64,000 nucleotides of DNA from Anadara kagoshimensis (lineage: Eukaryota > Mollusca > Bivalvia > Arcoida > Arcidae), in assembly GCA_021292105.1 (NCBI GenBank), contig CM037865.1, positions 73,362,128 through 73,426,127 on the forward strand. Direction: 5' to 3'. Position 1 is the stretch's first letter; each line of letters starts with the position of its first letter. The notes below the pieces were generated by a model. The model was not told the origin of the DNA and did not search any database. It was given only the letters and a program-made list of their open reading frames with translations. The position numbers and the translations under genes were made by a program. Shown here piece after piece: positions 2,713-64,000 of the stretch.

Positions 2713-3679
2713 CATTTCATTGAAAAGGGTATCTTGTATTTTCATTTATCAAAAGGGGTATCTTGTATTTTCATTCATCAAAAGGGGTATCTTGTATTTT
2801 CATTCATCAAAAGGGGTATCTTGTATCTTGTATTTTCATTTATCAAAAGGGGTATCTTGTATTTTCATTCATCAAAAGGGGTATCTTGTATTTTCATTCA
2901 TCAAAAGGGGTATCTTGTATTTTCATTCATCAAAAGGGGTATCTTGTATTTTCATTTATCAATAGGAATATCTTGTATTTTCGTTTATCAAAAGGGGTAT
3001 TTTGTATTTTCATTCATCAAAAGGGGTATTTTGTATTTTCATTCACCAAAAGGGGTATCTTGTATTTTCATTCATCAAAAGGGGTATCTTGTATTTTCAT
3101 TTAACAAATGGGGTATCTTGTATTTTCATTCATCAAAAGGGGTATCTTGTATTTTCATTCAACAAATGGGGTATCTTGTATTTTCATTCATCAAAAGGGG
3201 TATCTTGTATTTTCATTCATCAAAAGGGGTATCTTCTATTTTCATTCAATAAAAGGGGTATCTTGTATTTTCATTCATCAAAAGAGGTATCTTGTATTTT
3301 CATTCATCAAAAGGGATATCTTGTATTTTCATTCATCAAAAGGGGTATCTTGTATTTTCATTCTTTAAAAGGGGTATCTTGTATTTTCATTCATCAAAAG
3401 GGGTATCTTGTATTTTCATTCATCAAAAGGGATATCTTGTATTTTCATTCATCAAAAGGGGTATCTTGTATTTTCATTCTTTAAAAGGGGTATCTTGTAT
3501 TTTCATTCATCAAAAAGTGTATCTTGTATTTTCATTCATCAAAAGGGATATCTTGTATTTTCATTCATCAAAAGGGATATCTTGTATTTTCATTCATCAA
3601 AAGGGGTATCTTGTATTTTCATTCATCAAAAGGGGTATCTTGTATTTTCATTCATCAAAAGGGGTATCTTGTATTTTCA
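2713..3679. repeat. Minisatellite B, 29-bp unit
   Basis: About 33 copies of a 29-bp unit (TATCTTGTATTTTCATTCAT followed by CAAAAGGGG), with occasional single changes and one short partial duplication near 2820. Because 29 is not a multiple of three and the unit lacks stops, every plus frame reads the same peptide repeat. These frames are not taken as genes. Confidence 0.96.
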
Positions 3680-5552: not shown

Positions 5553-5695
5553 GCCTAACAGTGTTTACCCTTCCAAACACCCAGTCTCACTTCCCCAGGT
5601 TTTTCTTAATTTCATTATTGTCAGTTTTCAAAGTTTTTTTCCTTTGATTTTGGAATTGTAATTTGAACATGGAGTGGTATTTCTGTGGTTGATAT
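5553..5695 (+). mobile_element. Retroelement 3'-tail fragment
   Basis: Diverged copy of the dispersed tail seen most fully at 28979-29440: GTGTTTACCCTTCC, CACCCAGTCTCACTTCCC, TTTTCAAAGTTTTT, TTTGGAATTGTAATTTG and AACATGGAGTGGTAT in the same order. No coding part remains. Confidence 0.7.
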
Positions 5696-10590: not shown

Positions 10591-10674
10591 TGTATAACAT
10601 TTGAAGGAGAGACATTGTTATACATAATGGCATTGCTCTGTTCTATACCATAATAGATAATTATGCGACACAGA

Positions 10675-12642
10675 CATGGAGGACACAAAGTGCTACACAT
10701 CATGGTGTCTTTCTGTTTTGCGACACAGACATGGAGGACACAAAGTGCTACACATCATGGTGTCTTTCTGTTCTGCGACACAGACATGGAGGACACAAAG
10801 TGCTACACATCATGGTGTCTCTGTTCTGCGACACAGACATTGAGGACACAAAGTGCTACACATCATGGTGTCTTTCTGTTCTGCGACACAGACATAGAGG
10901 ACACAAAGTGCTACACATCATGGTGTCTTTCTGTTCTGCGACACAGACATGGAGGACACAAAGTGCTACACATCATGGTGTCTTTCTGTTCTGCGACACA
11001 GACATGGAGGACACAAAGTGCTACACATCATGGTGTCTTTCTGTTCTGCGACACAGACATGGAGGACACAAAGTGCTACACATCATGGTGTCTTTCTGTT
11101 CTGCGACACAGACATGGAGGACACAAAGTGCTACACATCATGGTGTCTTTCTGTTCTGCGACACAGACATGGAGGACACAAAGTGCTACACATCATGGTG
11201 TCTTTCTGTTCTGCGACACAGACATGGAGGACACAAAGTGCTACACATCATGGTGTCTTTCTGTTCTGCGACACAGACATGGAGGACACAAAGTGCTACA
11301 CATCATGGTGTCTTTCTGTTCTGCGACACAGACATGGAGGACACAAAGTGCTACACATCATGGTGTCTTTCTGTTCTGCGACACAGACATGGAGGACACA
11401 AAGTGCTACACATCATGGTGTCTTTCTGTTCTGCGACACAGACATGGAGGACACAAAGTGCTACACATCATGGTGTCTTTCTGTTCTGCAACACAGACAT
11501 GGAGGACACAAAGTGCTACACATCATGGTGTCTTTCTGTTCTGCGACACAGACATGGAGGACACAAAGTGCTACACATCATGGTGTCTTTCTGTTCTGCA
11601 ACACAGACATGGAGGACACAAAGTGCTACACATCATGGTGTCTTTCTGTTCTGCGACACAGACATGGAGGACACAAAGTGCTACACATCATGGTGTCTTT
11701 CTGTTCTGCAACACAGACATGGAGGACACAAAGTGCTACACATTATGGTGTCTTTCTGTTCTGCGACACAGACATTGAGGACACAAAGTGCTACACATCA
11801 TGGTGTCTTTCTGTTCTGTGACACAGACATGGAGGACACAAAGTGCTACACATCATGGTGTCTTTCTGTTCTGCGACACAGACATTGAGGACACAAAGTG
11901 CTACACATCATGGTGTCTTTCTGTTCTGCAACACAGACATGGAGGACACAAAGTGCTACACATTATGGTGTCTTTCTGTTCTGCGACACAGACATGGAGG
12001 ACACAAAGTGCTACACATCATGGTGTCTTTCTGTTCTGCGACACAGACATTGAGGACACAAAGTGCTACACATCATGGTGTCTTTCTGTTCTGTGACACA
12101 GACATGGAGGACACAAAGTGCTACACATCATGGTGTCTTTCTGTTCTGCGACACAGACATGGAGGACACAAAGTGCTACACATCATGGTGTCTTTCTGTT
12201 CTGCGACACAGACATGGAGGACACAAAGTGCTACACATCATGGTGTCTTTCTGTTCTGCGACACAGACATGGAGGACACAAAGTGCTACACATCATGGTG
12301 TCTTTCTGTTCTGCGACACAGACATGGAGGACACAAAGTGCTACACATCATGGTGTCTTTCTGTTCTGCGACACAGACATGGAGGACACAAAGTGCTACA
12401 CATCATGGTGTCTTTCTGTTCTGTGACACAGACATGGAGGACACAAAGTGCTACACATTATGGTGTCTTTCTGTTCTGCGACACAGACATGGAGGACACA
12501 AAGTGCTACACATCATGGTGTCTTTCTGTTCTGTGACACAGACATGGAGGACACAAAGTGCTACACATTATGGTGTCTTTCTGTTCTGCGACACAGACAT
12601 GGAGGACACAAAGTGCTACACATCATGGTGTCTTTCTGTTCT
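10675..12642. repeat. Minisatellite D, 55-bp unit, about 36 copies
   Basis: Nearly identical 55-bp units (GCGACACAGACATGGAGGAC, ACAAAGTGCTACACATCATG, GTGTCTTTCTGTTCT), with one unit two bases short near 10820. Single-base variants (GCAACACAG, GTGACACAG, CATTGAGG, CATTATGG) recur in similar groups around 11705-12090, a sign of multi-unit exchange. The three plus frames stay open for up to 385 codons because 55 is not a multiple of three and the unit has no stop. It lies inside TMTC2 intron 1, antisense to the gene. Confidence 0.97.
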
Positions 12643-28400: not shown

Positions 28401-28978
28401 TTGTTTATCAATGAGGACTATCTTTAAAAAATTCTGTCTTTAAATGTTTTCACCGTGGACTTTTCGTTCTGTCATTTTCTCTGGTTAGGTGTAAGTTAAG
28501 AGGCGTGAAATGAGTTAGTGTTGTAATATTTACACAGTATACATTACTATTAAACATATATATAACAGTTTTACATAGGTATATATAATTACAATCAAAC
28601 CGGGGAAGTTGTGTTATGTCAAAAGTCCTGTGTTCACGAGAGTTTTGGGTTATTTTACTATTTTACAGGAAAAATTCATCCAACCCACCAGTAACATATT
28701 TTACTGGGGGGGTCGCTTAACCCTGCAAACTTTTATTTAAACACTATTTTAATTGTATATAAATAATGAATTTAAATTAAAAAAATCAATTTCCTCATAT
28801 AAATGTAAAAAATAATTATTTTATTATATTATTATTTATTACATTATAAATTTTTCCGAACTTTTACGGATAATTTGTAAGGTTACACTGGGACAATGTA
28901 TAGAAAACTTTACTTTTGATCAACATTGTATACATTGTATAAAATTGCATTATATTTCCCTTTTTATACAGCAATATA

Positions 28979-29440
28979 ACCGCTTCTCCTGCTTATGGTG
29001 TATTTGTTTTCCCAATTAATACGCTATGGAAGAGCTTGTTCCCACTATGGGGACTTTGTACAACTAAGTAGGCTGCTTGCAAATAAATTGTTGACTCAGG
29101 AATATTGCAAGCCTATGCTTATCAAGGCCCTCAAAAAGTTTTATGGCCGTCATCACACTATTGTTGATAAGTTTGATGTCTCTATGTCCAGGATTGTCCT
29201 GGATATATTTGACGTCTCATAGTTCCATGTTCCTTTCACACAATTTTGATTACACACGTGGCGGGTGTAGCTAGCTAAACAGGAGGTGCTTATCCTTCCG
29301 GAGCACCCGGTCTCACTTCCCTGTGGAAGTTCACGTGTCTAACCTAACTTGTCAGTTCCAAAGTTTTTACTTTGCTTCTGGATTGTGATTCGGACATGGA
29401 TTAGTATGTTTGTTTTTGAAATAAACTATAGTAGATGTAT
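28979..29440 (+). mobile_element. Retroelement 3' end with reverse-transcriptase C-terminal fragment
   Basis: About 80 codons read SPAYGVYLFSQLIRYGRAC, then LANKLLTQ, KFYGRHHTIVDKF and IVLDIFDVS. I recall this C-terminal segment following reverse-transcriptase domains in invertebrate mobile elements, but cannot assign the class. A 200-base tail follows with GTGGCGGGTGTAGCTAGCTA, AGGAGGTGCTTATCCTTCCG, GAGCACCCGGTCTCACTTCC, TGGATTGTGATTCGGACATG and GATTAGTATGTTTG. The same tail occurs in at least eight other places in the window. This is a 5'-truncated relic; the element's body is absent. Confidence 0.75.
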
Positions 29441-30887: not shown

Positions 30888-31085
30888 TACCCTGGATATA
30901 TTTGACGGTTCCTTTCATTTTACGCGTGGCAGGTTTAGCTTGCTAGACAGGAAGTGTTTACCTTTCCGTCGCACCAGGCCTCACTTCCCTGGTGGAAGTT
31001 CGCGTTTTTAACTTAACTGTACTGGTTTTCACAATTTTTACTTCGTTTTTGGGATTGTGATTTGGACATGGGCCGGTATATCTCC
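30888..31085 (+). mobile_element. Retroelement 3'-tail fragment
   Basis: Contains CCTGGATATATTTGACG, ACGCGTGGCAGGTTTAGCTT, AGACAGGAAGTGTTTACC, CACTTCCCTGGTGGAAGTTC, TTTTGGGATTGTGATTTGGA and CATGGGCCGGTAT in the order of the 28979 copy. Its last 40 bases are the closest match to the unit of the 40.2-41.6 kb minisatellite. Confidence 0.85.
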
Positions 31086-38334: not shown

Positions 38335-38600
38335 TGTATTTGTTTTATGACCGTCATCACAGTATTGTTGATACGTATGGTGTCTCGGTGTTTGACTTCC
38401 CCTAGTTCTAGGTACATGTTCTATGCACTCTCAAATTTGATTACACATGTGGCGGGAGTAGCTAGCTAAACAGGAAGTGCTTACCCTTCTCTAGCACCCG
38501 ATCTCACTTCCCTGCAGTAGCCTAATTAGTCAGTTTCAAAGATTTTACTTTGTTTTTGGGAATGTGATTTGGACTTGGATTTGTATGTTTGATTTTAATT
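38335..38600 (+). mobile_element. Retroelement 3'-end fragment
   Basis: Starts within the coding remnant (TTTTATGACCGTCATCACAG, TATTGTTGAT) and continues into the shared tail: GTGGCGGGAGTAGCTAGCTA, AACAGGAAGTGCTTACCC, ATCTCACTTCCCTG, TTTTACTTTGTTTTTGGGAA and TGTGATTTGGACTTGGATTT. It is 5'-truncated. Confidence 0.85.
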
Positions 38601-40234: not shown

Positions 40235-41560
40235 AAAAACAAACGTACTAATTCATGTCGAAATCACAATCCAGAAGCAAAGTAAAAACAAACACGCTAA
40301 TCCATGTCCAAATCACAATCCAGAAACAACGTAAAACAAACACGCTAATCCATGTCCAAATCACAATCCAGAAGCAACGTCAAAACAAACAGACTAATCC
40401 ATGTCCAAATCACAATCCAGAAGCAACGTAAAAGCAAACATACCAATCCATGTCCAAATCAAAATCCAGAAGCAACGTAAAAACAAACATACTAATCCAT
40501 GACCAAATCACAATTCAGAAGCAAAGTAAAAATAATTTTGGAACCGGCCCTTGTTAATCATGTCCATAACACAATCCCAAAAGCAAAACACAAACAAACC
40601 CATGATACCGTCACAATCGCAAAAGTTATACTAAAATACACCGGTCCATGTCCAAATCACAATCCCAAAAGTCAAACATAAACATACCGGTCCATGTCCA
40701 AATCACAATCCCAAAAGTCAAACACAAACATACCGGTCCATGTCCAAATAACAATCCCAAAAGTCAAACACAAACATACCGGTCCATGTCCAAATAACAA
40801 TCCCAAAAGTCAAACACAAACATACCTGTCCATGTCCAAATAACAATCCCAAAAGTCAAACACAAACATACCGGTCCATGTCCAAATAACAATCCCAAAA
40901 GTCAAACACAAACATACCGGTCCATGTCCAAATAACAATCCCAAAAGTCAAACACAAACATACCGGTCCATGTCCAAATAACAATCCCAAAAGTCAAACA
41001 TAAACATACCGGTCCATGTCCAAATTACAATCCCAAAAGTCAAACACAAACATACCGGTCCATGTCCAAATAACAATCCCAAAAGTCAAACACAAACATA
41101 CCGGTCCATGTCCAAATACCAATCCCAAAAGTCAAACACAAACATACCGGTCCATGTCCAAATAACAATCCCAAAAGTCAAACACAAACATATCGGTCCA
41201 TGTCCAAATCACAATCCCAAAAGTCAAACACAAACATATCGGTCCATGTCCAAATCACAATCCCAAAAGTCAAACACAAACATACCGGTCCATGTCCAAA
41301 TAACAATCCCAAAAGTCAAACACAAACATACCGGTCCATGTCCAAATAACAATCCCAAAAGTCAAACACAAACATACCGGTCCATGTCCAAATAACAATC
41401 CCAAAAGTCAAACATAAACATACCGGTCCATGTCCAAATTACAATCCCAAAAGTCAAACACAAACATACCGGTCCATGTCCAAATAACAATCCCAAAAGT
41501 CAAAAACAAACATAAACATACCGGTCCAAGTCAAAATCACAATACCAAAAGTTAAACATA
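40235..41560 (-). repeat. Minisatellite F, 46-48 bp unit derived from the retroelement 3' end
   Basis: About 28 units. The left block (to about 40530) has 48-bp units with ACTAATCCATGTCCAAATCA and CAATCCAGAAGCAACGT. The right block (from about 40640) has very uniform 46-bp units with ATACCGGTCCATGTCCAAAT and AACAATCCCAAAAGTC. Read on the minus strand each unit is TTTTGGGATTGTTATTTGGA then CATGGACCGGTATGTTTGTG, the final 45 bases of the dispersed retroelement tail. The array runs directly into the rest of that element at its right side. Confidence 0.92.
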
Positions 41561-41823
41561 CCGATGCAAGCATGTCAACCCAAGTAAAACACTATGGAAG
41601 GGGGTCCTGATTCTCAGGAAGGGTAAGCACCTCCTGTTAGCCAGGCTAGATACAACCGCTACATTGAAAATCAAAATCACGAATGAAAGAAACATGGAAC
41701 TATAGAACGTCAAATTCTGGATACAGAGACATCATACTTATCAACAATATTATGATGGTGTCTTTTTTTAACGCCTTGGCTTGTAATATCCCCGAGTCAA
41801 CAATTTATATTAAGCTGCTTGAT
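41561..41823 (-). mobile_element. Retroelement 3' end adjoining minisatellite F
   Basis: In reverse orientation: AAGGGTAAGCACCTCCTGTT, AGCCAGGCTAGATACAACCG, GAAACATGGAACTATAGAAC, GTCAAATTCTGGATACAGAG, TACTTATCAACAATATTATG and CTTGTAATATCCCCGAGTCA, paralleling the coding remnant and tail of the 28979 copy. It is 5'-truncated. Minisatellite F sits exactly where this element's 3' terminus should be. Confidence 0.85.
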
Positions 41824-42139
41824 TTGTTGTTTTTCATTTGTGAACCTACCATTGATAATGCATTTGAAAGAAAACTTTTAATATTTCCCTTTTATAATGG
41901 GTTTGTTTTTGTGAGGTAATTTCATGTCAACAATATTTTATAATTTGTTTTCTCTGTTTAACACACACCATCATATCACGTACCGACTGATGGGTAATAA
42001 AATAATAAAATACAAACTACATGCACATGTACACGGTACATGTTTGTAATTTACAAATTAAATGTATATAGTTGGTATCATTTGATCGTTAATAATAAAT
42101 ACGTTTGTCATGTCCTATCAAGGTATTTTAGTAATTCAA

Positions 42140-42659: not shown

Positions 42660-42940
42660 GAAAAAATACAAACATTTCAATATTCTTTAAATACGAGGTT
42701 TAAACAGGCGTTGCTTACCCTTCCGGAGCACCCGACCTCTTTTTCCTTGTGGAAGAAGTTCATGTGATTTGCCAATTGGGTTTATGATTTGGACATGGAA
42801 AAAATACAAACATTTCAACATTCTTTAAATATATAAACAGGAGTTGCTTACCCATCTGGAGCACCCGACCTCAGTTCCCTGGTGGAAGTTCATGTTATTT
42901 GCCACTCGAATTTGTCATTTGGATATGGAATGATATGTTT
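42660..42940 (+). mobile_element. Tandemly duplicated retroelement tail fragments
   Basis: Two copies about 140 bases apart. Each starts with AAAAAATACAAACATTTCAA and ATTCTTTAAATA, continues with AACAGG(C/A)GTTGCTTACCC and GGAGCACCCGACCTC, and ends with TTTGGACATGG or TTTGGATATGG. The unique A-rich lead-in is duplicated as well, so this is a local duplication rather than two insertions. Confidence 0.8.
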
Positions 42941-44208
42941 GTTTTTGAAAATATTTATATTGTTTGGTGACTACCCAAAGCCACACTTGTGTTTTTTAAT
43001 TTGCGTTTATTAATTCCTTTTTTATGTTTTGTTTTATTCTTTATTGTAATGTTGGTTTTGGATATTGTCAAGTCAGGAATTACTCTCCTCATTATTTTAT
43101 AGTATACTTCATTTTACACTACATGATGCATATAATTTACATAACACCTAAACCGTGTCGTATACTGGTCAGGAGTAAAAGTCACATATGTGTAAAATCC
43201 AAACATTTTCACGCATAATAACATAAGTATAATAATTCTTCTTACACGTTACATACAGGACTTAAAACTGTCATTCTGTTGATAAATGTGGGCCCTGGGT
43301 GAGGAAAACAATTTGTTAAAATAATTAAATATAAATAAATATGAAATTACTTATATAGTATATGCAAATGTATTTAAATATGTGCCTTAAAATAGATATA
43401 ACATACACCTGACAGGACAGTCCACTCACGTGTTTACGCTGCCTGTAACACCAGGAGTAAGGTAACGAGTTCAGTATACTTGATGTCCGTGCTGTAGAGA
43501 TGTCAGTTAATTTTACACCATGCACGCAATAAAACGCAAGAAACTGAGATGTGTAAAAAAATATCAACATATATATAAAAAATAATACATTGCAATTAGC
43601 AAGTTTGTACATTTAACCCACATTTTGGATATTTTGTACCCCAAACGTCTCCCTCCCCTCTACAGCAAATAAGTCATAACATTTCTACCCGACGGACTTC
43701 CTCTCCCTTCTACGGTGCTATGCAGATCTAGAGCCTATCTGGACTTTTTGTAAGTATGGTTGTACAAGATCGTGATATGTGTTTCGGTTCCCACCTTACG
43801 CTTCGACTAGCTGATGCAGTTACGCTAGATGACGTGATTACTAGATCTTATTGAAGACTCTACAGTGACTGACTAAATTAACAACTGAAGATAGATAACA
43901 TGAAATGATAATTAAGATTTGGTATACTTTAATAATTATTCTGGTAAGTGCATTAAAAGATCATTCGCTGTATAAAATACGTTGTAGGTGTGTCATATAC
44001 CATGTTTTAAAATGTTAATAATTATAATTAAATAAAATGGTAGTTTATATGACAGCTGATTTAATGGCCAGTGCTACCAACAACACATGATGTAAGCCAG
44101 AAATGACACAATGTTACTAGGATTATAAGAAATGCGTCAGTTACATCAACAGCCCCATAAAGGACCATTTTACCGAAGTTTGGTTCATGTGGTTTGTATT
44201 TATACTGC

Positions 44209-52767: not shown

Positions 52768-53225
52768 GAGAAAACTCACGACTTCTGACCAGTACTAGAC
52801 ATGGAAAACTCACGACTTCTGACGAGTACTACACATGGAAAACTCACGACTTCTGACCAGTACTACACATGGAAATCTCACGACTTCTGACGAGTACTAC
52901 ACATGGAAAACTCACGACTTCTGACCAGTACTAGACATGGAAAACTCACGACTTCTGACGAGTACTACACATGGAAAACTCACGACTTCTGACGAGTACT
53001 ACACATGGAAAACTCACGACTTCTGACCAGTACTATACACATGGAAAACTCACGACTTCTGACGAGTACTAGACATGAAAAACTCACGACTTCTGACGAG
53101 TACTAGACATGGAAAACTCACGACTTCTGACGAGTACTATACACATGGAAAACTCACGACTTCTGACGAGTACTATACACATGGAAAACTCACGACTTCT
53201 GACGAGTACTACACATGGAAATCTT
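52768..53225. repeat. Minisatellite G, left block, 34-36 bp unit
   Basis: About 13 units of GGAAAACTCACGACTTCTGA plus CGAGTACTACACAT, with GACC for GACG, AGACAT for ACACAT and ATACACAT length variants. Phenotypically neutral-looking noncoding repeat; a short open frame at 53075-53284 is produced by the array. Confidence 0.95.
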
Positions 53226-53430: not shown

Positions 53431-53470
53431 TGTACAAGACGTGTTGAATAAACGCAAAACAATCCAGAGT

Positions 53471-53675
53471 GGAAAACTCACGACTTCTGACGGGTACTAA
53501 ACATGGAAAACTCACGACTTCTGACGGGTACTAAACATGGAAAACTCACGACTTCTGACGTGTACTAAACATGGAAAACTCACGACTTCTGACGGGTACT
53601 AAACATGGAAAACCCACGACTTTTGACGGGTACTAAACATGGAAAACTCACGACTTCTGACGGGTACTAAACATG
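53471..53675. repeat. Minisatellite G, right block, 34-bp unit
   Basis: Six units of GGAAAACTCACGACTTCTGA plus CGGGTACTAAACAT. All but one carry CGGG, and all carry TAAACAT, differing from the left block's CGAG and TACACAT or TAGACAT. Confidence 0.95.
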
Positions 53676-59282: not shown

Positions 59283-59575
59283 AAAACAAACATACTAATC
59301 CATGTCCGAATCACAATCTAGAAGCAAAGTAAAAACTTTGGAACTGACAAGTTAGGTGAGACACGTGAACTTGCCCCAGGGAAATGAGGCCGGGTGCTCC
59401 GGAAGGGTAAGCACCTCCTGTTTAGCTAGCTACACCCGCCACGTGTGTAATCAAAATTGTGTAAAAGGAACATGGAACTATGAGACGTCAAATATATCCA
59501 GGGCAATCCTGGACACAGAAACATCAAACTTATCAACAATACTGTGATGACGGCCATAAAACTTTTTGAGGGCCT
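59283..59575 (-). mobile_element. Retroelement 3' end, well conserved
   Basis: The closest match to the 28979 copy, in reverse orientation: AACAAACATACTAATCCATG, TCCGAATCACAATCTAGAAG, CCGGGTGCTCCGGAAGGGTA, AGCACCTCCTGTTTAGCTAG, CTACACCCGCCACGTGTGTA, AACATGGAACTATGAGACGT and GATGACGGCCATAAAACTTT. It ends inside the coding remnant (5'-truncated). Its terminal unit is present once, not amplified. It lies about 400 bases beyond the FReD stop codon. Confidence 0.88.
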
Positions 59576-60579: not shown

Positions 60580-63500
60580 CTATAGAGAGGATGTATGTGT
60601 TTATGATCTGGCCCTGTAGAATGGGTGTATGTGTTTATGATCTGGCGCCGTAGAATGGGTGTATGTGTTTATGATCTGGCCCCGTAGAATGGGTGTATGT
60701 GTTTATGATCTGGCGCCGTAGAATGGGTGTATGTGTTTATGATCTGGCCCCGTAGAATGGGTGTATGTGTTTATGATCTGGCGCCGCAGAATGGGTGTAT
60801 GTGTTTATGATCTGGCCCCGTAGAATGGGTGTATGTGTTTTTGATCTGGCCCCGTAGAATGGGTGTATGTGTTTATGATCTGGCCCGTAGAATGGGGTAT
60901 GTGTTTATGATCTGGCGCCGCAAAATGGGTGTATGTGTTTATGATCTGGCCCCGTAGAATGGGTGTATGTGTTTATGATCTGGCGCCGCAGAATGGGTGT
61001 ATGTGTTTATGATCTGGCCCGTAGAATGGGTGTATGTGTTTATGATCTGGCGCCGCAGAATGGGTGTATGTGTTTATGATCTGGCCCGTAGAATGGGTGT
61101 ATGTGTTTATGATCTGGCGCCGCAGAATGGGTGTATGTGTTTATGATCTGCCCGTAGAATGGGTGTATGTGTTTATGATCTGGCGCCGCAGAATGGGTGT
61201 ATGTGTTTATGATCTGGCCCCGTAGAATGGATGTATGTGTTTATGATCTAGCCCGTAGAATTGATGTATATGTTTATGATCTGGCGCGCAGAAGGAATGT
61301 ATGTGTTTATGATCTGGCGCCGCAGAATGGGTGTATGGTTTATGATCTGGCCCCGTAGAATGGATGTATGTGTTTATGATCTGGCGCCGCAGAATGGGTG
61401 TATGTGTTTATGATCTGGCCCGTAGAATAGATGTATGTGTTTATGATCTGGCCCCGTAGAAAGGATGTATGCGTTTATGATCTGGCTCGTAGAATGGATG
61501 TATGTATTTATGATCTGGCCCGTAGAAATGATAAGTGTTATGATCTGGCCCCGTAAAATGGATGCATGTGTTTATGATCTGGCCCGTAGAAATGATGTAT
61601 GTGTTTATGATCTATCCCCGTAGAAAGGATGTAAGTGTTTATGATCTAGCCCCGTAGAATTGATCTATGTGTTTATTATCTGGCCCCGTAGAATGGGTGT
61701 ATGTGTTATGATCTGGCCCGTAGAATTGATGTATGTGTTTATTATCTGGCCCTGTAGAAAGGATGTATGCGTTTATGATCTGGCCCCGTAGAATGGATGT
61801 ATGTGTTTATGATCTGGCCCCGTAGAATGGATGTATGTGTTTATGATCTAGCCCCGTAGAATGGATGTATGTGTTTATGATCTAGCCCCGTAGAATGGAT
61901 GTATGTGTTTATGATCTAGCCCGTAGAAAGGATGTATGTGTTTATGATCTAGCCCCGTAGAATGGATGTATGTGTTTATGATCTAGCCCCGTAGAAAGGA
62001 TGTATGTGTTTATTATCTGGCGCCATAGAAAGTATGTATGTGTTATTATCTGGCCCGTAGAAAGGATGTATGTGTTTATGATCTAGCTCCGTAGAAAGGA
62101 TGTATGTGTTTATGATCTGGCGCCATAGAAAGGATGTATGTGTTTATGATCTGGCCCGTAGAAAGGATGTATGTGTTTATGATCTAGCCCCGTAGAAAGG
62201 ATGTATGTGTTTTATGATCTGGCGCCATAGAAAGTATGAATGTGTTTATTATCTGGCCCCGTAGAAAGGATGTATGTGTTTATGATCTAGCCCCGTAGAA
62301 AGGATGTATGTTTATGATCTGGCGCCATAGAATGGATGTATGTGTTTATCTTGGCGTCATAGAAAGGATGTATGTGTTTATGATCTAGCCCCATAGAAAG
62401 GATGTATGTGTTTATTATCTGGCCCGTAGAATGGGTGTATGTGTTTATGATCTAGCCCATAGAAAGGATCTATTGTTTATTATCTGCCCCTTAGAAATGG
62501 ATGTATGTGTTTATGATCTAGCCCCGTAGAATGGATGTATGTGTTTATGATCTAGCCCGTAGAATGGATGTATGTGTTTATGATCTAGCCCCGTAGAATT
62601 GAATGTATGTTTATTATCTGGCCCCGTAGAATGATGTATGTGTTTATATCTGGCCCGTAGAATGGATGTATGTGTTTATGATCTAGCCCCGTAGAAGGGA
62701 TGTATGTGTTAATGATCTAGCCCCGTAGAAGGATGTATATGTTTATGATCTAGCCCGTAGAATGGATGTATGTGTTTATGATCTAGCCCCGTAGAATTGA
62801 TGTATGTGTTTATTATCTGGCCCGTAGAATGGATGTATGTGTTTATGATCTAGCCCCGTAGAAAGGATGTATGTGTTTATGATCTAGCCCGTAGAAAGGA
62901 TGTATGTGTTTATTATCTGGCGCCATAGAAAGTATGTATGTGTTTATTATCTGGCCCCGTAGAAAGGATGTATGTGTTTATGATGGCCCCGTAGAATGGA
63001 TGTATGTGTTTATGATCTGGCCCCGTAGAATTGATGTATGTGTTTATTATCTGGCCCGTAGAAAGGATGTATGCGTTATGATCTGGCCCCGTAGAATGGA
63101 TGTATGTGTTTATGATCTGGCCCCGTAGAATGGATGTATGTGTTTATGATCTAGCCCGTAGAATGGATGTATGTGTTTATGATCTAGCCCGTAGAATGGA
63201 TGTATGTGTTTATGATCTAGCCCCCGTAGAAAGGATGTATGGTTTATGATCTAGCCCCGTAGAATGGATGTATGTGTTATGATCTAGCCCCGTAGAAAGG
63301 ATGTATGTGTTTATTATCTGGCGCCATAGAAAGTATGTATGTGTTTATTATCTGGCCCCGTAGAAAGGATGTATGTGTTTATGATCTAGCTCCGTAGAAA
63401 GGATGTATGTGTTTATGATCTGGCGCCATAGAAAGGATGTATGTGTTTATGATCTGGCCCCGTAGAAAGGATGTATGTGTTTATGATCTAGCCCGTAGAA

Positions 63501-64000
63501 AGGATGTAGTGTTTATGATCTGGCGCCATAGAAAGTATGTATGTGTTATATCTGGCCCCGTAGAAAGGATGTATGTGTTTATGATCTAGCCCGTAGAAAG
63601 GATGTATGTTATGATCTGGCGCCATAGAATGGATGTATGTGTTTATGATCTGGCGTCATAAGAAAGGATGTATGTGTTTATGATCTAGCCCCATAGAAAG
63701 GATGTAGTGTTTATTATCTGGCCCGTAGAATGGGTGTATGTGTTTATGATCTAGCCCATAGAAAGGATGTATGTGTTTATTATCTGGCCCGTAGAATGGA
63801 TGTATGTGTTTATGATCTAGCCCCGTAGAAGGGATGTATGTGTTTATGATCTAGCCCCGTAGAATGGATGTATGTGTTATGATCTAGCCCGTAGAATTGA
63901 TGTATGTGTTTATTATCTGGCCCCGTAGAATTGATGTATGTGTTTATATCTGGCCCGTAGAAGGATGTATGTGTTAGATCTAGCCCCGTAGAAGGGATGT
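60580..64000. repeat. Minisatellite I, 32-34 bp unit, about 100 copies, runs off the window
   Basis: Units of GAATGGGTGTATGTGTTTAT plus GATCTGGCCCCGTA, without an end before 64000. Up to about 61200 GGCCCCGTA and GGCGCCGCA forms alternate, giving a 66-68 bp higher-order unit. After that the units become GAAAGGATGT and GATCTAGCC types, with many one- or two-base deletions (GCCCGTA, GTTATGATC, TTTATATC). Confidence 0.96.

Follow-up and report, generated by a model that had tools for sequence, protein, structure and literature searches.

The birth of minisatellites has been described by the Haber-Louis model, in which the motif that will become the repeat unit is flanked by short direct repeats (PMC6947457, PMC3389668), and in human transposable elements (TEs) 300 TE-derived repeats flanked by direct repeats of 5-20 bp have been reported (PMC3389668). 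We describe here an array located in a stretch of 64,000 nucleotides from Anadara kagoshimensis (contig CM037865.1), which is hereafter called the window. The array resembles the TE-derived minisatellites of the Haber-Louis model, since a stretch lying between 6-bp direct repeats of a TE appears duplicated and expanded and single-copy ancestors exist. It differs in that a single retroelement family supplies the unit, from its terminal segment, and in that the process is recurrent at many insertions within one genome. A flanking direct repeat (for the 49-bp and 50-bp units), single-copy ancestors, intermediate unit numbers and reshuffling, all of them features of the model, were found here, although the join of the 46-bp unit is not clean.

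Other described systems share part of these features. The satellites associated with retrotransposons in soybean (Gmr9/GmOgre; PMC3305785) and Lathyrus (LTR elements; PMC7004042) were also born as arrays inside dispersed retroelements and were occasionally expanded, but those are LTR elements whose arrays are internal, whereas here the element is 5'-truncated, the array lies at its 3' end and most intact tails carry a single unit. In another invertebrate, the Pacific oyster, Helentrons (Cg_HINE; PMC7492417) are mobile elements that likewise carry short satellite-like arrays to dispersed places of the genome; however, they are DNA transposons with built-in central arrays, while most of the intact tails studied here have no array. 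Penelope-like elements show 5' truncation and some tandem copies too (PMC11167929, PMC3846280), but in the element of the window, a candidate member of this group, no GIY-YIG domain was recognised and no hammerhead match was found in the parts read. Among the titles and beginnings of abstracts searched in a partial library, none dealt with this array or with minisatellites derived from a Penelope-like tail.

The array of the window lies on the minus strand between positions 40235 and 41558 and, according to a sliding count, contains 27 units, i.e., six of 48-49 bp (40252-40496, spaced 48-49 bp), a transitional one (40557) and twenty of 46 bp (40645-41519, spaced 46 bp). With Tandem Repeats Finder, the region 40235-41493 gave 26.8 copies and the region 40613-41558 gave 20.4 copies of the 46-bp unit. 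The left block (40235-40527, minus strand), comprising the six units of 48-49 bp, has the tail sequence of a younger type of the element and terminates at the canonical element end, GTTTTTGATT. It is contiguous with a body remnant of about 29 bp (40528-40556, minus strand; BLAST to 40544, the remainder by eye), which belongs to the younger-type copy bearing this block, 5'-truncated just upstream of the unit. The transitional, degenerate end of the right array occupies the block junction (40557-40612, minus strand), as deduced from the sliding count and sequence inspection. The right block (40613-41558, minus strand) consists of the twenty 46-bp units, defined by Tandem Repeats Finder and the sliding count, with an older-type tail and the junction GTGTTTGA|CTTTTGGG. 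Beyond it, at about 41596-41830 on the minus strand, alignment to copies in the window and in the genome revealed the 3' body of the older, 5'-truncated copy bearing this block; it shares 68-72% identity with the in-window copies, and its best genome matches reach 78-80% over 145-155 of 263 bp. Read on the minus strand, the left block matches the copy ending at 29419 (91-94% over 52-55 bp) and the right block the copy at 30913-31079 (94% over 33 bp). Since the left block shows a body remnant of its own and terminates at the canonical element end, the window array is in fact two arrays, carried by two abutting element copies, one of the younger and one of the older type.

An earlier note on this sequence had traced the array to a retroelement's 3' end and placed it at the terminus of one of its copies, and this holds: the unit matches the end of the element and the older body is found beyond the array. 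The note had also suggested at least two rounds of spread, and the two blocks are indeed separate rounds. However, the left unit measures 48-49 bp, the unit extends slightly further into the tail than the note stated (GTTTTT|ACTTTGCTTC...GTTTTT), the left block has an element remnant of its own, and the 27 units are distributed in two arrays.

The genome examined comprises 1.115 Gb in 36 contigs. The 30 copies fetched with the tail at 28970-29425 have a fixed 3' end and differing upstream starts (5' starts were listed for 26), which is the signature of 5'-truncated retrocopies. The longer copies contain an open frame of 507 aa with a Pfam RVT_1 match (E=1.2e-5; 25.5 bits, under the curated cut-off of 29.6) and the motifs FSTLYTTIP, GIPMGTN and YRYIDD, the YIDD-type motif being recognised by eye. 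Judging from these sequence features, the element probably encodes a reverse transcriptase, whose motifs presumably resemble those of Penelope-like elements. The search against the sequences of solved structures (PDB) yielded no match to this reverse transcriptase at E 0.01, and its structure model was too poor for use (pLDDT 34.7). Pfam gave no match to a GIY-YIG endonuclease in the 507-aa part and none was recognised by eye in the partly read upstream frame, while Rfam gave no match to a hammerhead or other RNA family in the window and six loci, which contain a partial element. With regard to a pseudo-LTR, a few copies were seen in head-to-tail order. Consistent target-site duplications were not found in 26 copies, of which L044 and L047 show matches of 7-8 bp near both ends, and therefore the arrays are not datable by insertion footprints. 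Two short potential hairpins, GGTGCT...AGCACC and ACTTCC...GGAAGT, were observed by eye in the 3' body of the younger copy (29270-29340) and might serve as a recognition structure in the RNA; of the GGTGCT...AGCACC hairpin, only a part is retained in the older copy at 30913.

The window also contains copies carrying the unit only once. On the plus strand, the copy at 28955-29419 (unit at 29381) has 39 other scored genome matches that are 95-97% identical, and sequence comparison identified two older-type copies at 30913-31079 (unit at 31053) and 38342-38597 (unit at 38560). On the minus strand, the copy at 59283-59575 (unit at 59299) is 95.6% identical to 29125-29419. This is in agreement with the previous observation that copies near 28979, 30888 and 59283 carry the terminal segment once, their ends being located at 29419, 31079 and 59283, and the same is true of the copy with its unit at 38560. 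A scan of the window detected degraded terminal segments at 5654, 42780 and 42910. In addition, the region 42660-42950 contains an old tail of the same element twice, head-to-tail and with a 133-bp period, a further tandem arrangement in the window.

The boundaries of the unit can be read in the single-copy tail, whose layout is GTTTTT|ACTTTGCTTC...GTATGTTTGTTTTT|GATTA. The word GTTTTT appears here twice at a distance of 49 bp, with its later occurrence directly before the terminal GATTA, and the 49-bp unit is the exact interval between both. GTTTTT is the sole 6-bp direct repeat with a 49-bp spacing in the 126-bp stretch that contains the single-copy tail, and any 6-bp pair at this spacing appeared in 1.6% of 5000 shuffles of the stretch. 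A 50-bp array of the older type (L176) has the same join as the 49-bp unit. In the 46-bp unit, which joins GTGTTTGA to CTTTTGGG, an additional A is retained and a clean direct repeat is lacking. Its junction is present in 17/17 46-bp arrays, 16 of them chosen for their likeness to that of the window, suggesting a common source; a longer intermediate form of this junction, sought in the 17 arrays, gave one match (C3_476).

The earlier note had assumed that the growth took place at one insertion. This reading was rejected because the genome searches with either block gave many similar arrays (188 and 139 matches, with 40 candidates scored each) and because the exact 49-bp junction occurs 1003 times genome-wide versus 0 for the reversed control; many copies thus carry arrays. 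Among the 100 junction places listed, those on C1 and C2, for which the lists appear complete, correspond to 19 and 6 loci. Across loci the arrays range from two to over two hundred units, the largest being C8_410 (>11 kb, about 249 units). For the 49-bp arrays, 10 of the 33 listed besides that of the window were fetched, and the element body was found directly upstream in nine (seven at once and two after extension; one of the latter, L130, has an internal deletion), while L072 gave no readable edge. The 46-bp arrays read were 17, i.e., that of the window and 16 of about 23 others listed, and the upstream edge was reached in 12. The body was present in nine of these edges (only about 20-40 bp in three of them; by eye in C7_124), and the other three arrays (C8_410, L080 and L082) start mid-unit without a body. 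An older and independent satellite, which the earlier note had named as a finding that would count against its reading, was thus not encountered among the 49-bp arrays with a readable edge, although three of the 46-bp ones lack a body. Single-unit tails are plentiful, with 2430 exact ones (1078 of the older type and 1352 of the younger type). When older-type tails were sampled by their first unit, 2/17 had arrays and 15/17 were single; these 17 were drawn from 80 exact places listed and include three pairs of near-identical duplicates.

To locate arrays by type, the tail scan required an intact first unit and five bases of the body. The tails that continue with AC after the first unit were 21 of the older type and 1 of the younger type, and 20 of the 22 were true arrays; L107 and L109 were left out of the array count, as their flank begins with AC by chance. 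Arrays were therefore present in 20/1098 older-type but in 0/1352 younger-type intact tails (Fisher, 1e-7). The 20 arrays contain 2 (six arrays), 3 (four), 4 (two), 6, 7 (two), 9, 11, at least 13 (two) and about 23 units, and 17 of the 18 array ends read continue into GAT after the T-run. The GGAAATGGATAAG type is considered the younger one because its body divergence is 0.2% in 19 copies versus 1.2% in 5 copies of the GGACATGGATTAG type, an assignment based on 30 copies that are all top matches. Body divergence is higher in the copies with arrays than in 20 single copies (pooled, 5.5% versus 3.5%; p=0.033), which were taken at intervals from 100 listed of 1078 and are all on C1 and C2; three copies with fewer than 30 aligned columns (M_L101, S_L119 and S_L120) were kept in the pooled figures but excluded from the test and the medians. 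Moreover, in 14/20 loci the units after the first show less divergence than the body (3.4% versus 5.5%; p=0.021), a modest difference obtained with an anchored alignment, since a looser first test had taken in non-homologous flank; other cuts of the data gave 15/19 (p=0.0014) and 9/12 (p=0.052). The empty younger type and these other numbers fit growth after insertion, whereas growth at insertion does not predict an empty younger type. However, the younger and older units differ by two bases, and the contrast between both types could be due to this difference in sequence instead of to age.

The internal structure of the arrays reveals turnover. The nearest relative of a unit is located in the same locus for 51% of the units in the 49-bp arrays (22 loci) and 70% in the 46-bp arrays (17 loci) versus 5-6% when permuted, units with indels or more than 12-13 mismatches being excluded. 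In several arrays, variants not shared with other loci occur in all or nearly all units or in the majority of them, e.g., 37T>A in 18/19 units of L071, and L069 and L092 have no such private variants. The variant 14G>T is found in 13/20 units of the window, 41/41 of C3_476 and 11/19 of C12_296. Block duplications are visible in L093 (listed units 2/9 and 3/10) and L094 (2/5, 3/6 and 4/7), and higher-order periods in L073 and L076. These last two arrays, located on C17 and 1.2 Mb apart, are truncated at the same point and have the adjoining 5' flank in common over about 170 bp, and thus they are best read as one duplicated insertion. Their shared unit variants had been considered as a sign of a retrotransposed array, an interpretation that was rejected when the extended flanks, read at the 5' edges, pointed to duplication. 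Their first units are collinear, but the unit with T18C, G24A and G40T is listed ninth in one and fifth in the other, which is direct evidence for turnover after insertion.

Taken together, we consider it probable that the array is a minisatellite grown after insertion from the terminal ~49 bp of a retroelement truncated at its 5' end, and that this has happened at many insertions. The unit boundaries, the series of copy numbers and the reshuffling are observed; the mechanism would be a mispairing of the two GTTTTT words, by replication slippage or unequal exchange, that adds one 49-bp unit. Once two or more units were present, exchange between them could lengthen, shorten and reshuffle the array. 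In older types, the same join would yield the 50-bp unit and another join the 46-bp unit, and the window would hold the product of two such events, on a younger-type and an older-type copy that abut. This route looks like the one already described for minisatellite birth. One set of data fits less well, because late growth on an old copy should start from mutated founders, and source-like units count against growth after insertion. The single junction of the 46-bp arrays, which points to a common source, also counts against it. The units look younger than the bodies of their hosts: those of the right block are 3.6% per unit from the 46-bp consensus, while the body is at best 78-80% identical to other copies. 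Part of this effect is accounted for by ascertainment, since similar arrays were picked, and by subfamily distance, and a further part could come from self-targeted re-insertion or from units moving from one locus to another. In the dimers L091 and L108, whose first unit was selected as exact, the second unit carries T34A, a base also found in the younger type.

The earlier note had offered both slippage during target-primed reverse transcription and later exchange as possible mechanisms, and we favour the latter, i.e., DNA-level duplication and unequal exchange after insertion. Slippage during integration would require the cDNA end to leave the inner GTTTTT of the RNA and realign at the outer one, adding units before completion in a telomerase-like manner. 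The GTTTTT pair would be equally usable on RNA, the array ends reach the canonical 3' end in 17/18 cases and the local array consensuses are near the subfamily consensus, as if formed at insertion. Nevertheless, the younger-type tails have the same GTTTTT pair and no array (0/1352 versus 20/1098), the array copies are more diverged than the single ones, and L073/L076 were rearranged following their duplication, so that this mechanism appears unlikely. A related idea is that the reverse transcriptase of the element adds units onto existing genomic copies, the GTTTTT pair acting like the alignment region of a telomerase RNA with a 49-nt template; this would make units young and source-like even on old copies, as in the right block, but we regard it as quite improbable. 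The spread of array-bearing copies, at least of the 46-bp type, in transcripts that become 5'-truncated within the array would be in agreement with the single junction of the 17/17 46-bp loci, with the mid-unit starts without body of C8_410, L080 and L082, and with the 14G>T variant common to the window, C3_476 and C12_296. The scarcity of arrays among the sampled older-type tails (2/17), the lack of consistent target-site duplications defining such insertions and the fact that L073/L076, the pair most clearly related, is best explained by one insertion that was duplicated make it very improbable.

Self-targeted insertion deserves separate consideration. Extremely 5'-truncated copies would enter the AT-rich 3' end of a previous copy, join at GTTTTT and then undergo exchange. 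Among 26 young copies, L057 lies 12 bp from an element end in the same orientation and L048 lies 7 bp from one in inverted orientation; second copies are found behind the arrays at L083 and L086, and by eye also at L146, L170, L174 and L181. The copies that abut the 3' end of another one (L057, L048, L170 and L174) suggest a preference for own sequence. In the window the left block stands behind the right one, Penelope-like elements have been reported in (partial) tandems (PMC11167929, PMC3846280), and such insertions would account for units younger than host bodies and for the T34A second units. However, an identical microhomology join would be required every time, the block duplications and the clustering per locus still demand growth at the DNA level, and no array was found behind an intact younger-type unit. 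In any case, the flanks are copy-rich (26 match rows in 45 kb and 18 in 32 kb), so that some close neighbours are due to chance. As a source of the arrays, we consider this route doubtful and rather unlikely. The reverse order of events, in which an independent satellite was captured as the 3' end of the element, could explain why three of the 46-bp arrays, one of them >11 kb (C8_410), show no element body at their upstream edge, but the unit is found once in the 2430 exact tails of two types and in 15/17 sampled older-type tails, arrays being a minority. This order is thus disfavoured and seems extremely unlikely.

The probable growth after insertion by duplication and exchange makes this locus a well-documented case of an already known kind of minisatellite birth. 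Such births are usually inferred from finished arrays, while here one genome contains thousands of aged starting copies together with arrays of 2, 3, 4 and more units. The aged copies and the size series make it possible to measure the rate of the first duplication, its dependence on the 6-bp repeat and the later growth. It also means that a retroelement can seed satellite-like DNA after landing.

The window contains other large minisatellites at 10664-12642 (55 bp), 1529-2568 (48 bp) and 2716-3679 (29 bp). A minisatellite with a 34-bp unit and about 100 copies occupies positions 60589-64000 and runs off the end of the window, and two arrays with nearly the same 34-bp unit are located about 250 bp apart at 52770-53221 and 53470-53675.
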